A stretch of DNA of 40,237 nt from a virus, in IMG/VR virus record IMGVR_UViG_3300015360_000087, positions 1-40,237 of that record; one strand, 5' to 3'. Positions 28,811 to 34,046 of the stretch are shown here, piece by piece. The translations under genes were made by a program, and so were the position numbers. A model generated the notes under the pieces. The model saw only the letters and a program-made list of their open reading frames with translations, was not told where the DNA came from and ran no database searches. The stretch's first letter is position 1. Every line of letters starts with the position of its first letter.

Positions 28811-29421
28811 TATGAATCTCTTAAACGACTTTCATTAGGAAATATAGAATTTCTTGCATCAATAAATGTATCAGAATTTATATCTGATGAACTACTGGAT
28901 GCAGTACCTGCCTGAGCCAATAAGTCTTTAGCGTGATCCATAGCATAAGACAAAGCAGCTTTATATGAAGACAGCTGGCCTGTTTTTGAATAGATCAATT
29001 CCGCTGTTAGTCTATCTACCACAGCTTGTTGTAAGTATATATCATAAGCATTTACATCTGTAATTAAGGCAATATAATAAATATTTATAGTGGCCTCATC
29101 AGTAAGAAGTTGGCTACCCTCGATTACATAAGGAGTTTGACCGGCCTTAGTTTCATTGATACTAATTAGTTTTAAAAGTTTTGGATTAGTTGGCAGTGAG
29201 TAAGCATAACTAAATTCAAATGCAGGGGCAGTTGCTAGTTGTGCTAAAGCAGCCCTTCTGCGGCATGATGGCCATGCGCCTAAACTCATTACTTCCTCGG
29301 CAATTAAATCATAAATAGCAGAACAATCTTTTGCTTCTACAGTAGCATCAGTCAGTGCTGTAATGCGAGAAGCAGCAATTCTAGTAAGAGCTAAGTTACA
29401 AATCTGAACTTTAGAACTCAT
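28810..29421 (-). CDS. tail tubular protein A / adaptor (T7 gp11-like)
   Basis: The 203-aa protein (T7 gp11 is 196 aa) has the usual pattern of the adaptor family: VQICNLALTRIAASRI, YDLIAEEVMSLGAWPSCRRR, FSYAYSLPTNPKLLKL and a C-terminal helix ending in a polar tail. It forms the ring between portal and nozzle. It starts right after two tandem intrinsic terminators, so its expression relies on readthrough or on a lower-level transcript than the capsid. Confidence 0.85.
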   Translation of the reverse strand: MSSKVQICNLALTRIAASRITALTDATVEAKDCSAIYDLIAEEVMSLGAWPSCRRRAALAQLATAPAFEFSYAYSLPTNPKLLKLISINETKAGQTPYVIEGSQLLTDEATINIYYIALITDVNAYDIYLQQAVVDRLTAELIYSKTGQLSSYKAALSYAMDHAKDLLAQAGTASSSSSDINSDTFIDARNSIFPNESRLRDS

Positions 29422-29435
29422 AAAAAAGCCTCTCT

Positions 29436-29477
29436 AAAAAAATAATGGGCCATTTATAGATAACTATATTTGACCCA
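29436..29477 (-). terminator. intrinsic terminator with U-tract (second of a tandem pair)
   Basis: On the minus strand the stem TGGGTC/GGCCCA (one G-U pair) encloses an inner ATAG/CTAT stem with a TTAT loop, followed by TTATTTTTTT. It lies between the decoration-like gene and tail tube A. Confidence 0.7.
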
Positions 29478-29484
29478 CTAAAGA

Positions 29485-29507
29485 CTGGACAACAATTAGT
29501 TGTCCAG
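29485..29507 (-). terminator. hairpin terminator overlapping the stop of the decoration-like gene
   Basis: The perfect 9-bp stem CTGGACAAC/GTTGTCCAG with a 5-base loop is followed on the minus strand by TCTTTA. The stop codon lies in the loop. With the next hairpin it forms a double terminator downstream of capsid and decoration genes. Confidence 0.65.
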
Positions 29508-30020
29508 CGTACCTGTCACAACCATTGTGATTGTTCCAGCAGCACCTGTTGCAGCAGCTGCTGTAACAGTTAAAGCTATATCCAACATAACTTGCGGATC
29601 TGTTGTATATCCAGCTAACTCCCATGCAGTCTTACCAATATCTGCAATATCATGAGCTTCCATAGCTACATTTACACCAGCAGTATTAGCAGCGTTTAAG
29701 GTTGTAATAGCAGATGCCAATCCATCAGCATCTTTAACAGCCCCAGTTACAGCATTATAGAAACCAACATCTACGGCAATTAAAGGTGTGGCGTGTGTGT
29801 CTAAATCATCGTTAAAAATATCACAACGAGTAATTTTCAACCTAGATGGTATTCTAATCATTTTAATAATGTCACCAACATCATCTATATTTGTAGTAGC
29901 AACTTCAATAGTTTCTGTATATTGACGAACTTTACCGCCTTGGTTTGCACCTTGGCGTAGTGTTACAGGTACAGCATCAAAGCCTGTGATGCTAGCAGAT
30001 TTTACGGTTGCAGCGGCCAT
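29496..30020 (-). CDS. capsid decoration or head-fibre-like protein
   Basis: The 174-aa protein follows the capsid gene by 15 bases and shares its promoter and terminators, so it should be made at high level. It is beta-rich with Thr/Ala/Val (TETIEVATTNIDDVGD, TVTAAAATGAAGTITM) and lacks catalytic motifs. This fits a small structural protein that decorates the head, or a minor capsid protein. No family is assigned with certainty. Confidence 0.6.
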   Translation of the reverse strand: MAAATVKSASITGFDAVPVTLRQGANQGGKVRQYTETIEVATTNIDDVGDIIKMIRIPSRLKITRCDIFNDDLDTHATPLIAVDVGFYNAVTGAVKDADGLASAITTLNAANTAGVNVAMEAHDIADIGKTAWELAGYTTDPQVMLDIALTVTAAAATGAAGTITMVVTGTLDN

Positions 30021-30035
30021 ATGTCACCTCTTGTA

Positions 30036-30938
30036 TTATGTTCTGTAGCATTCAATTGAAACAACTTTTTCTTCTTGACGTCTTACTGCACCGATATCCA
30101 TAGCACCATAGACTTGAGTCGAGTATCGCTTATCATCACGTTCACTGACACGCACATTAATGTCACGACCAGTAGCAACCCCAACAGCAGAAGGAACAAA
30201 CACAATCGCACGAACAAAGCCAGCAGCATCTTTGTGGATGGTTTGTGCAAGTCTTTCACACCACACAAAACGAAAGCCCATAAAGGTACTAACTTCACCA
30301 GCAACCAAAGCTTTGACTGTATTATAGTCGGAGCTGGTTACAGAGGTTTCACTAAGCAGCCCATCAGTTAAAGCAGCACCGTCATGGACACATGTTGGTA
30401 CTTCAGACTGAAGGTCTACATTGTTCTGCATAAAGACTTTCTTGGCAGCACGCAATTTAGCAACAATAAGATCGCTATTAGCAGTACCAATATCTTCATC
30501 AATGATTTGTCCTGATGGCAGTACCACTGAAGATTGAGCATCAGCACTGTCAACAGCATAGGCATCACCATAAAGAGCAGCCAAGATAATATCATCTGCT
30601 TTGCGACCTAGGGCCATTGCAATAGATAATGAATATTCACTGGTTGGGTCAATAAGCATACGCACCTTATCTGAATTGTCGATTAATTCTGCGGCATCAA
30701 ATGTGCGCAAAATGCAACGACGACGAGAGTGTGCAAGGTTTAAGGGATCAGGGGTATCACCATGACGGGTTAAAACTTCAGATGCTTCACCTGAGCCTAA
30801 TCTATCAAAATGAGTATATTTACCTGTAATTTTTTCTGGTCTAACTACTGGAAGTAGCATAGAGCCTTTTTGTTGAACTAGCAATTCAAGATTAGCTTTA
30901 AATTGCTGTACAAATGCAACATTAACTGTACTAGACAT
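30036..30938 (-). CDS. major capsid protein
   Basis: The ATG at 30938 follows AGGTG by about 7 bases; the GTG at 30947 is part of that site. The 300-aa protein begins VAFVQQFKANLELLVQQKGS and contains ILRTFDAAELIDNSDKVRML, DPTSEYSLSIAMALGRKADD and GFRFVWCERL. This pattern belongs to the HK97-fold capsid family PF19821 (Phage_capsid_2), found in podoviruses and siphoviruses and distinct from T7 gp10. It lies between scaffold and decoration genes and has its own promoter, leader and terminators. Confidence 0.85.
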   Translation of the reverse strand: MSSTVNVAFVQQFKANLELLVQQKGSMLLPVVRPEKITGKYTHFDRLGSGEASEVLTRHGDTPDPLNLAHSRRRCILRTFDAAELIDNSDKVRMLIDPTSEYSLSIAMALGRKADDIILAALYGDAYAVDSADAQSSVVLPSGQIIDEDIGTANSDLIVAKLRAAKKVFMQNNVDLQSEVPTCVHDGAALTDGLLSETSVTSSDYNTVKALVAGEVSTFMGFRFVWCERLAQTIHKDAAGFVRAIVFVPSAVGVATGRDINVRVSERDDKRYSTQVYGAMDIGAVRRQEEKVVSIECYRT

Positions 30939-31106
30939 AGTATTCACCTATAAACTAATTAATATATGAAGCTAATTAGCATGTCCAGATTGCCCTTGCG
31001 GATCAGGAGTTTGCATTTGTCTATATCATGGACTCTTGCGAGCTACCCACTACTTCGACGGGAACCTAGGGTGCTTCTAACCCCTATAATTCCGTTATTA
31101 TAACCC
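30939..31106 (-). promoter_or_regulatory. structured 5' leader of the capsid mRNA
   Basis: About 160 bases without a gene separate the capsid promoter from its ATG. Pairings seen on the transcript: GUCCA/UGGAC (31029-31033 with 30983-30987) closes a domain containing a hairpin with a GCAA loop (30988-31004). A second stem pairs 31041-31048 with 31069-31075 (7 bp, one bulge), and next to it CUC-GCAA-GAG (31033-31042) gives a second GNRA tetraloop. A perfect palindrome GCTAATTAGC is at 30971-30980. Two GNRA loops and a long-range helix suggest a folded leader affecting stability or translation. Confidence 0.5.
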
Positions 31107-31135
31107 ATTCTATAGATACTTTTCTATAAAGTCAA
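31107..31135 (-). promoter_or_regulatory. strong sigma70-like promoter for the capsid gene
   Basis: On the minus strand TTGACT (31135-31130), a 17-base spacer and TAGAAT (31112-31107) each match the consensus at 5 of 6 positions. The predicted start is near 31100, inside the non-coding gap after the scaffold gene. Confidence 0.7.
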
Positions 31136-31139
31136 TAGG

Positions 31140-32075
31140 CTACTCAGATTGTTCTTTGTCTGGGTAAACATCCGAATACAAAGCATTGACTTGTTGAACT
31201 GCACTATCATGAGCCGGACTATTGAGATCATGGTAGGCATGGCCTTTATTTCCCATAATATCACTAATTTGGCTCATAGCTTGCTCTGGTGTGCGGCCTG
31301 ACCCAGTGCCTCGCCCAATGCCAATTGTACCACGTTCAGCGTAAATACCACCCAGTTCAGCTGCCATCATGACAACAACAGGGTTATTACCGGCATATCC
31401 ATTCTTTAACTCATCAACAGCTTCAGGGTACTTCTCAGCATACTTAGCCAATACACCTTTAAAGCAGGCAGTCTTTTCTTCAAAGGCATTACCCCATGTC
31501 TTTTGTAAAAAAGAACGAACATTCTCTTTTTGGGTATTAAGAGCCGCTAATGCTTCTTTACCACGGGCAACTTCAAGGTCTGACAGCACTTTTAATTGAG
31601 CATTATTAAGCCCAGCTTTGTGTGCCACTATCTTAGCTTGCTCTAAAAAGTCAGCATCGACTGGCAAATCGTTAGGAATATCAAGATCATACTTATCTGC
31701 TGATTCTGGGCGACCTAAAGCTTTATATACTCTATCCATTTTTTCTGCGGCCTTTGGGTCATTTTCAGCAGGCAGCCTAAACGTACCTGAGATTGATTCT
31801 AGTTTTGTATTAAACTCATCAATTACTTCTGGAGCAGCATCAGCACTTGGGATTGGAATTCTTCCGCCAATCATGTTCTGTGCGCTTAGGAAGCTTTTAG
31901 CAAGCCCATTGACATCCTTAATAGAGGACAGGGCTGGGTTGTCACGAATGTCTTCTGACAGCGAGCTGCGGAAGTCTACTGGGGCAACAGGGGCGGCTAC
32001 AGACGCCTCAACAGACGGTGTAGTGGTTTCAGTGGTTGTGGTGACTACAGTTTCTTCATTAGTATTATTCGTCAT
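31140..32075 (-). CDS. scaffolding protein
   Basis: This 311-aa acidic protein lies between portal and capsid genes. It has a disordered Thr/Val/Ala-rich N-terminus (TTTTETTTPSVEASV), a helical middle (AKSFLSAQNMIGGRIP, KYDLDIP, DFLEQAKIVAHKAGL, LLxDLE-like helices) and a helical tail. The NMIG+RI and YDL patterns are common in podovirus scaffolds of the T7 gp9 class. It directs procapsid assembly and is released on packaging. It ends just before the capsid promoter. Confidence 0.8.
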   Translation of the reverse strand: MTNNTNEETVVTTTTETTTPSVEASVAAPVAPVDFRSSLSEDIRDNPALSSIKDVNGLAKSFLSAQNMIGGRIPIPSADAAPEVIDEFNTKLESISGTFRLPAENDPKAAEKMDRVYKALGRPESADKYDLDIPNDLPVDADFLEQAKIVAHKAGLNNAQLKVLSDLEVARGKEALAALNTQKENVRSFLQKTWGNAFEEKTACFKGVLAKYAEKYPEAVDELKNGYAGNNPVVVMMAAELGGIYAERGTIGIGRGTGSGRTPEQAMSQISDIMGNKGHAYHDLNSPAHDSAVQQVNALYSDVYPDKEQSE

Positions 32076-32340
32076 TTTCTTTATCCTCTTTTTCCTGTTG
32101 TCTAATAAGTTTAAATTCAGTCGGGGTTAATTCTACGAACATTCTAAGACGTTGTACTAAATCATGTTGGCCATTGCGCCATATAATTCTGTTAGTGCTA
32201 GGCTCTCTGCCTGTAAGCTGTTCTTCATCTGGTGCAAAAATCGGGCGAGATACATCTTTTTCTAACTCCCTTAAAAGGCTCAATCCCGGTTCTATGCTTA
32301 ATACATCTTTTACTAGCTTTGCTAATTCAGATGTTTTCAT
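32065..32340 (-). CDS. Bbp19-like small head-associated protein
   Basis: This 91-aa protein overlaps both portal and scaffold genes. The segment RPIFAPDEEQLTGREP followed by RNGQHDLVQRLRMFVEL resembles the phage Bbp19 domain (a short helical protein with a G-x-R-x-x-V helix, encoded near portal or scaffold in several phages). The C-terminus is highly charged. Its role is unknown; location suggests head assembly. Confidence 0.5.
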   Translation of the reverse strand: MKTSELAKLVKDVLSIEPGLSLLRELEKDVSRPIFAPDEEQLTGREPSTNRIIWRNGQHDLVQRLRMFVELTPTEFKLIRQQEKEDKENDE

Positions 32341-34046
32341 TTAACTGAACCCTCCTGTGGTATGCTGCCTACATTTTTAGCCATGTTACCAATACTTTCA
32401 CCTGCCTGTAAAGCAGATTGTGCTTGTGCTGCTTGTTCTCGTTGGCCTCGTATTGCAGCTACCTCCTCATCTGTTCTTGTAAGCTGCTCTGGAATATCAC
32501 GAATGCGAGCCATTACTTCAGCAACTTCATCAGTGTCAATCAGGTCAATTGTAGGAGTTTGTGTTAATTGGCCCATTTGAGAAACCTCTTGGACATAGGC
32601 ACTAATATTGCGCAACTCAGACATCTGTTGTGAGCGTGCCAATGAATTAACAAACGCAATTTCTAAATCAATTGTTTTATTACCATATGCATCTCTAGTA
32701 GTAATTTTACTACGTACTGATTCAGGGATAGGTGGAATCTTGCCAGCTCTCATCAATATCTTTAGAGTGCGCATAATCAAAGGTTCAAAAACTTCATGGT
32801 TGGCTCTGCTTAATGGCGGCCCCAATACAACCTGCATTTGTTCCAGTCTTTGCTGAATTTCATATGCGGTCATTTCCCCAGTTTCTGTGCGAGGCGGCAG
32901 CATTAATTTATCAACATAGAATGCAGCTTTAATAGCATCTTTTAGTTCTTTAGCTTGCAAGAAACCTATATCAAAACGAGATTGTGTAACACCTTCTTTG
33001 ATTCCTGCAATACTTCTTACAGACACCAGTTTGCCGGGGCGCATGTCTCCTGTAATAATATTGTTTTGTTCTTGGAATATAACTGGATCAATTGCTTTAG
33101 CCAAACCTTTAAGTAAAGTTCGTGTAAGTACATTAATCGTTAATACGTCAGGCAGTGCTACATGACTTGGCCCAAAACCATATATTTCGCCCGGCTGTGT
33201 TGACCATCTAGATACATACACAGGAAATTCATAATAGCCGTCTTCTTTAACTACTTTACTGCCTTTGGCCATTACATACATTGAAGCTACAGGCCTGTGA
33301 TTAGCAGGTGCTTCACCAAATTCATTCAGCTTAACATCTTTTTTGTCGCGCATATAAACACAATGATAAAAATCAATTTCTTCTAGTGGTGTTGCTTCCA
33401 TTTTTTTAATTAAGTCTTCACCGATTGCATCACCGAATTCTTCATATGCTTGTTTAAGAGTAAAATCAAATTTGTGATAAACACAATCAACCATACCTTT
33501 TGAATTTTCTGCATAGGCTACTTCACCTAAATGCCATGTCGCAAAATTCATTCCAGTGTATTGACCGTTCTCTCTCAGCTCATCATGTAATAAAACCATA
33601 GTGCCAAACCCAGAATGGCTTTGATATCCTATTCCTATCTGGTCGTCAAAATTAGAATCTGACAGCGCATTATGAACTTCAATAGTGGCGTTACTTGTCC
33701 ACATATTTCCATCATCATCATTATTGAGAGCAGTTTGTTTAAACCTCAACTTACTCCATTTAGTCGCTGGGTTGGTAATTGTTGAATGCATTGAGGCGGC
33801 TAAATCTCTACAAGCACTAATAGCAGTAATGTCAAAAGTACGACTGTCTTTTCTGTTGCCCTTGCTTTGTTTGCCACTATTTGTAAACTTGCTATTTTGC
33901 GAAGGCACAATAAATTCAGCAATTTCTCTCCACACTCTTTCAACATTAGTACGCTCTTGTGTTGCAAAGGCAGCATTAGCTTGACGCATAAGCTTTTGGC
34001 CTAAACCATTTGGGTCGCCACTAGTCTGTTTATAAGAGTCTGTCAT
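32337..34046 (-). CDS. portal (head-tail connector) protein
   Basis: The 569-aa protein (T7 gp8 is 536 aa) has the podovirus head-tail connector pattern: QANAAFATQERTNVERVWRE, TRTLLKGLAKAIDPV, PPRTETGEMTAYEIQQRLEQ, LGPPLSRANHEVFEPLI and a Gln/Ala-rich C-terminal helix. Twelve copies form the vertex ring through which DNA is packaged and which binds TerL and the adaptor. Overlapping start and stop codons link it to the holin-like and Bbp19-like genes. Confidence 0.9.
   Translation of the reverse strand: MTDSYKQTSGDPNGLGQKLMRQANAAFATQERTNVERVWREIAEFIVPSQNSKFTNSGKQSKGNRKDSRTFDITAISACRDLAASMHSTITNPATKWSKLRFKQTALNNDDDGNMWTSNATIEVHNALSDSNFDDQIGIGYQSHSGFGTMVLLHDELRENGQYTGMNFATWHLGEVAYAENSKGMVDCVYHKFDFTLKQAYEEFGDAIGEDLIKKMEATPLEEIDFYHCVYMRDKKDVKLNEFGEAPANHRPVASMYVMAKGSKVVKEDGYYEFPVYVSRWSTQPGEIYGFGPSHVALPDVLTINVLTRTLLKGLAKAIDPVIFQEQNNIITGDMRPGKLVSVRSIAGIKEGVTQSRFDIGFLQAKELKDAIKAAFYVDKLMLPPRTETGEMTAYEIQQRLEQMQVVLGPPLSRANHEVFEPLIMRTLKILMRAGKIPPIPESVRSKITTRDAYGNKTIDLEIAFVNSLARSQQMSELRNISAYVQEVSQMGQLTQTPTIDLIDTDEVAEVMARIRDIPEQLTRTDEEVAAIRGQREQAAQAQSALQAGESIGNMAKNVGSIPQEGSVK

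Follow-up and report, generated by a model that had tools for sequence, protein, structure and literature searches.

Phage T7 encodes the polymerase that it uses and has extended RNase III duplexes, and coat-protein operator hairpins of the MS2/PP7 type cover a start codon. The putL RNA of phage HK022, about 73 nt in length, forms two bulged stems just downstream of the PL promoter (PMC9378689). The manA, wcaG, and glnA motifs are structured RNAs of marine phage genomes (PMC2864571, PMC9004378).

The leader described here precedes the major capsid protein gene in the window, that is, the whole 40,237-nt stretch of virus contig IMGVR_UViG_3300015360_000087 that was analyzed. It resembles HK022 putRNA in following a promoter immediately, in having two bulged stem-loops, and in standing first in a long operon. 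This likeness is one of position and outline only, whereas put follows early promoters and has no capsid link, and no Rfam or sequence match was seen. No report of a repeated module with a wobble pair and a YAR bulge, as described below, was found for put. With the T7 gene 10 leader and its RNase III sites, the locus has in common a special 5′ leader on a podovirus's most highly expressed capsid gene, whereas its helices are short and bulged and its promoter is of the host type. A T7-type RNase III site (a near-perfect duplex of ~20 bp) was absent, the leader helices being 2-7 bp long and interrupted by bulges. Like the MS2/PP7-type operators, the leader offers bulged hairpins near a virion gene that are suited to local protein recognition; it differs in that its modules are repeated and end a median of 41 nt before the capsid AUG, and protein binding is putative. 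The manA, wcaG, and glnA motifs have other structures and precede metabolic or tmRNA genes. Neither the window nor 20 relatives gave a match in Rfam 15 at gathering or loose thresholds, and no description of the leader was found in the open-access literature, in which structured-RNA surveys and HTVC010P-group genomics were incompletely covered. The leader is best classed among the 5′ leader RNAs of phages, and its structural module is new as far as these searches reach.

Genomic setting and promoter

The window capsid gene is of the HTVC010P type, and the nearest isolates by capsid were HTVC010P-type pelagiphages and spring-water podoviruses (37-45% identity). The order of assembly gene followed by capsid gene is also found in HTVC010P-type phages. 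In the window, 201 non-coding nt on the minus strand separate the assembly gene from the capsid ATG, and the region contains the following features.

31140..32075, minus strand: capsid assembly/protease-like gene, upstream of capsid (phrog_3742 and phrog_458)
31107..31135, minus strand: sigma-70-type promoter TTGACT-17-TAGAAT, from the sequence and its retention in relatives
31061..31093, minus strand: P0, 5′-terminal hairpin (loop GAAGC, 31073-31077)
31028..31050, minus strand: P1, 5′ module GUGG[GUAG]CUC-GCAA-GAG[U]CCAU (GUAG 31043-31046, opposite U 31032, GNRA loop 31036-31039), also in the MFE fold
30984..31008, minus strand: P4, 3′ module UCC(U)GA[U]CC-GCAA-GG[GCAA]UC(U)GGA, with strand order opposite to P1 (U 31002, GNRA loop 30996-30999, bulge strand GCAA 30990-30993)
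30955..30979, minus strand: P5, A/U-rich hairpin just 5′ of the ribosome site (loop GCUUC, 30968-30972)
30945..30949, minus strand: Shine-Dalgarno-like AGGTG, from the sequence
30036..30938, minus strand: gene for the major capsid protein, with its ATG at 30938 (match to PHROG 3437, major head protein, at E 9e-72)

The largest rightward genes of the window encode primase/helicase and DNA polymerase. Since no single-subunit RNA polymerase was found among the scanned window proteins, a host-type promoter is expected. The near-consensus promoter proposed in the first-pass annotation is indeed present at 31135..31107, and TTGAC and the 17-nt spacing were kept in L001, L002, and L003, the closest relatives in an IMG/VR capsid search (99, 76, and 70% identity, respectively). 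The promoter is TTGACA..TAAATT in L002 and TTGACA..TAAACT in L003. The leader length of ~160 nt given in that annotation agrees with a predicted length of ~162 nt within the 201-nt gap. Across the family, -10-like hexamers clustered 5-14 nt 5′ of the first module, with 28 in two 5-nt bins and 1-5 per 5-nt bin in most bins outside this peak, so that the transcript is predicted to start just 5′ of the first stem; the clustering fits a leader that would begin at its first module. Where a small upstream ORF overlaps the leader, as in one sub-group, an adjacent promoter was absent, and a 5′-terminal position is therefore not valid for all leaders. An ORF of 40-80 aa lies between the assembly and capsid genes in many relatives (L007, L051, L063, L067, L078, and others), and ends next to or within the leader's 5′ module. 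Alteromonas phage ZP6, whose leader is missed by model R2 (see below), carries TTGACA-17-TATAAT, and inspection of its sequence showed two modules of type A. No intrinsic terminator (G+C-rich stem and T run) was found in 29000-34000 or after the leader. A strong promoter-like sequence, TTTACA-16-TATAAT, was observed at 29051-29078 on the plus strand, antisense to the late operon.

The repeated module and other parts of the leader

Relatives set side by side revealed a module consisting of a stem, a pyrimidine opposite a four-base RYAR strand, a short inner stem, and often a GNRA loop. The RYAR strand lies on the 5′ strand in type A and on the 3′ strand in type C, and 2-3 copies are present per leader. 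The window leader has one type A module (P1, GUAG/U) and one type C module (P4, GCAA/U), which places it among the leaders with at least two modules. These hold the two GCAA loops noticed in the first pass, at 31036-31039 and 30996-30999, and GNRA loops recur in many relatives. The long-range GUCCA/UGGAC helix drawn at the same time was not supported, since it competes for covarying P1 bases (U31032 and CCA) and no equivalent was found in L002; L003 offered a different 6-bp option. Of the pairings first drawn, the loops were thus retained and the long-range helix was not, the actual unit being a wobble-plus-bulge hairpin.

The helix bases of P1 differ from those of the window in both L002 (AUCCG[AUAA]CC-GCAA-GG[C]CGGAU) and L003 (AUGG[AUAA]UCU..AGA[C]CCAU), with pairing kept, and the P1 wobble is A·C in these two and G·U in the window. 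The P4 block GATCCG[CA]AAGGGCA is common to L001-L003, and its outer pairs become UUAGA/UCUAG in L003. P4 was matched by models R1 and R2; its outer helix has a U·U mismatch and the free descriptor misses it, so the assignment depends on the models and on L003. The 3′ end of P4 lies 45 nt before the capsid ATG, near the family median given above.

P0 and P5 are extra hairpins specific to the clade of the window, L002, and L003. The P0 counterparts in L002 and L003 have the loop UGAAGC and are Y/RYAR-type modules, which are degenerate in the window. The P5 sequence is present in all three and is conserved without covariation. The P0 loop GAAGC is complementary to the P5 loop GCUUC(A), making a kissing pair possible; the contact is conserved but invariant, and is therefore offered as a suggestion only. 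A pairing between the P0 loop (CACCCUA) and UAGGUG, as Shine-Dalgarno and anti-Shine-Dalgarno, is present in the window and lost in L002, and was discarded.

Middle hairpins P2 and P3 followed by UAAA, a trait of a sub-group and not universal, were not evident in the window, in which the linker (31009-31027) is too short for them; the R2 alignment leaves P2 empty and P3 mostly unpaired. In the leaders of L030, L044, L028, and L034, an H-type pseudoknot is apparently formed by a middle hairpin (GAGUC..GACUAUAAAC), with the partners loop UGCCGC/GUGGCA in L044, CCCC/GGGG in L030, and UACCC/GGGUA in L034; the changes among these three look compensatory, as counted by eye only. In group I leaders (e.g., L066, L074, and L125), the P3 loop is often complementary over 3-4 nt to bases after the AAAA linker (GUC/GAC, GCC/GGC, UUGA/UCAA), a possible short pseudoknot. 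By eye, the leader upstream of position 1501 in L238 has three modules, two of type A and one of type C.

Conservation and covariation among relatives

In addition to L001-L003, a second IMG/VR capsid search yielded 80 loci at about 45% identity, and loci L235-L245 were added from a further search (L235-L237 at 50-53%). No capsid relatives were confirmed in cellular genome contigs, and no DNA-level similarity to the window was found among phages because the clade is too diverged. The pattern GATCCGNAAGGGCANNCTNGA occurred in 14 stretches and was relevant only in three clade members, the rest being in unrelated sequence. Nearly all capsid relatives have a leader 5′ of the capsid gene; no module was seen in Vibrio phage 1.182.O or in Alcaligenes phage Piluca, the latter being nearly without a gap.

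The module descriptor was run on 83 non-redundant leaders at three thresholds. At the loosest, 58 leaders had two or more modules, compared with 0.8 in shuffles and 1.3% among 320 coding windows, and 78 had one or more (12.7 in shuffles); at the strictest, 66 leaders had at least one (2.1 in shuffles). When any four bases opposite any one base were allowed, the dominant strands were GUAG, AUAA, and ACAA. In a count restricted to RYAR, the first base and its opposite base formed G·U in 78 cases and A·C in 62, versus 8 A-U and 1 G-C; Fisher's test of this exchange gave 9e-32, uncorrected for kinship. The 5′ module and the 3′ module undergo the exchange separately: both L072 and L096 combine one G·U with one A·C, and the order differs between the two. 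Because a G·U wobble is isosteric with A+·C, a wobble pair next to a YAR bulge of three bases is the better description of the internal loop. Judged from these base counts, the switch from G·U to A·C is a signature at the RNA level. In leader modules of all groups, the fourth RYAR base tends to be G when the first is G and A when the first is A, a hint that a base triple may form with the pyrimidine across from them.

The minimum free energy of the window leader was no better than that of shuffled sequences (z = -0.22; 82 of 200 shuffles folded equally well), and a fold with the comparative pairs enforced lay within 1.2 kcal/mol of it. As there was also no Rfam match, significance had to come from the relatives. 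That the structure exceeds chance is accordingly not shown by folding energy alone and is upheld by comparison. In a MAFFT alignment of 27 relatives made from sequence without structure input, on which 22 pairs were scored, 95.8% of cells were paired and 13 of the 22 pairs had changes on both sides. Double-change cells numbered 75 against 22.6 after shuffling, and the covariation score was 0.377 against 0.146 (0/500 shuffles in both cases); sliding the structures along the alignment reduced paired cells to 28-49%. In a 38-sequence alignment, double changes affected 20 of 22 pairs and filled 172 cells; this alignment leans toward the model since it was widened with R1. Compensatory changes, for which the first-pass annotation had recommended a search, are thus found in relatives.

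The position of the leader was equally constant. A 3′-module form, GTGTCCGNAAGGGTAGCAC, was found in at least 120 stretches in IMG/VR, and 78 of 80 examined lay 43-50 nt before the capsid start. A second form, GGTTTCCC..GGATAAAAACCG, lay 27-72 nt before the capsid start in all 57 located cases, so that the two together were upstream of capsid in 135 of 137 examined cases. Among motif matches, the one in L121 was apparently coding, and the one in L178 (114-132), a phage unrelated to the others, was an exact copy of the 3′-module sequence that preceded a gene unrelated to capsid; about one chance match was expected. In every case the leader shared its strand with the capsid gene. Applied to 22 whole phage records, R2 gave 16 leader matches, one per genome, and one coding chance match; the matches include the isolates HTVC010P, HTVC024P, Lederberg, and Greip. 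The annotated isolate regions that were read list no RNA feature at the leader site. These sequence comparisons indicate that a structured leader RNA is conserved before the capsid gene in well over 100 related aquatic phages.

Model R1 covers sub-group I only and R2 covers 30 sequences, both without the window's clade. On both strands of the 40-kb window, each ranked 30986-31051 on the minus strand first, R1 with 8.7 bits and R2 with 14.1 bits (E 0.074); the next R2 match had 8.1 bits, and the leader is single-copy in the window by this model. The R2 match to the L003 leader had an E-value of 0.031. These E-values are weak singly, but the window match is on the expected site and strand. Low R1 matches upstream of the leader in L066 and L128 were inside the assembly gene and were set aside.

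Proposed function and alternative explanations

The first-pass suggestion of a cis-acting RNA of an unrecognized class is well supported by the covarying structure, the near-exclusive site before capsid, and the lack of an Rfam match. We propose, with a probability of about 0.5, that the leader controls capsid mRNA stability or translation through protein binding at its modules. Host RNA polymerase would start at the conserved promoter, and the nascent leader would fold at once into a row of hairpins. Each copy of the module, P1 and P4 in the window, would probably be recognized locally by a host or phage protein, since one local motif is found repeatedly, with differing distances between copies and with its strands in either order. 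The leader would thereby give the capsid mRNA a folded 5′ end and a platform for protein binding, and would set, in cis, the stability and/or translation of a late transcript in high demand. Ribosome-site accessibility was predicted to equal that with shuffled leaders (p = 0.14). By nearest-neighbor folding, the start site is thus predicted to be neither hidden nor exposed by the leader, and predicted accessibility does not favor a sequestration switch.

The main rival, which we consider unlikely, is put-like antitermination or anti-pausing, in which the nascent leader binds host RNA polymerase and renders the enzyme insensitive to pausing and termination over the late operon of ~15 kb. The put antiterminator of HK022 binds the β′ zinc-binding domain and suppresses termination. 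An RNA of ~100 nt with two main bulged stem-loops, directly after a promoter whose -10 box abuts the first module and ahead of a long operon starting with the capsid gene, is what such a mechanism would use. However, in genomes with a small gene between those for assembly and capsid, the leader still keeps its fixed link to the capsid start codon, and terminator-like sites in the late operon are at chance level, so that there is no visible need for antitermination.

Next in order, and also doubtful, is a passive stabilizer whose 5′-terminal hairpins block 5′-end-dependent attack by RNase E with no specific partner. Stabilizing 5′-terminal hairpins occur in leaders of the ompA type, and promoter spacing here predicts few unpaired 5′ bases ahead of the first stem. 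Such a stabilizer, however, has no need of a constrained GUAG/AUAA/ACAA strand, of a wobble that covaries from G·U to A·C, or of modules in both strand orders, and leader energies are only modestly below those of shuffles (mean z -1.0; window -0.22).

A ligand-binding riboswitch or self-cleaving RNA would accord with the compact conserved structure and the possible kissing or pseudoknot contact, and is nevertheless improbable: no Rfam riboswitch or ribozyme was matched, no terminator follows the leader, no ribosome-site sequestration is predicted, and a structural gene would be an unusual target. A DNA-level element (operator, packaging site, or recombination site) that is palindromic by accident would explain the fixed genomic position, yet is very improbable given the constant capsid-sense strand and G-U compensation and G·U to A·C exchange, which are sensible in RNA and not in DNA. 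Equally remote is a chance resemblance of the window leader to a real broad family: the E-value of 0.074 at best and the z of -0.22 would allow it, whereas two models place their top match in the 40-kb window, both strands, at the expected site, and the clade mates L002 and L003 keep the modules with changed pairs.

Within the preferred reading of protein-mediated control, we put forward tentatively that a permutable wobble-plus-YAR-bulge module, repeated two to three times, controls capsid production in HTVC010P-type phages and their relatives via a dedicated protein, which may be the capsid protein. For work on RNA 3D motifs, a G·U/A·C module that is found in both strand orders makes a clean case, and cultured hosts are available for HTVC010P, HTVC024P, Greip, and Lederberg, which R2 matched, and for ZP6, which has the module in its leader. 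A capsid-specific RNA with a sharply defined and testable module provides an entry point for study; if the proposal is true, the permutable module would be a class of regulatory RNA without earlier description.
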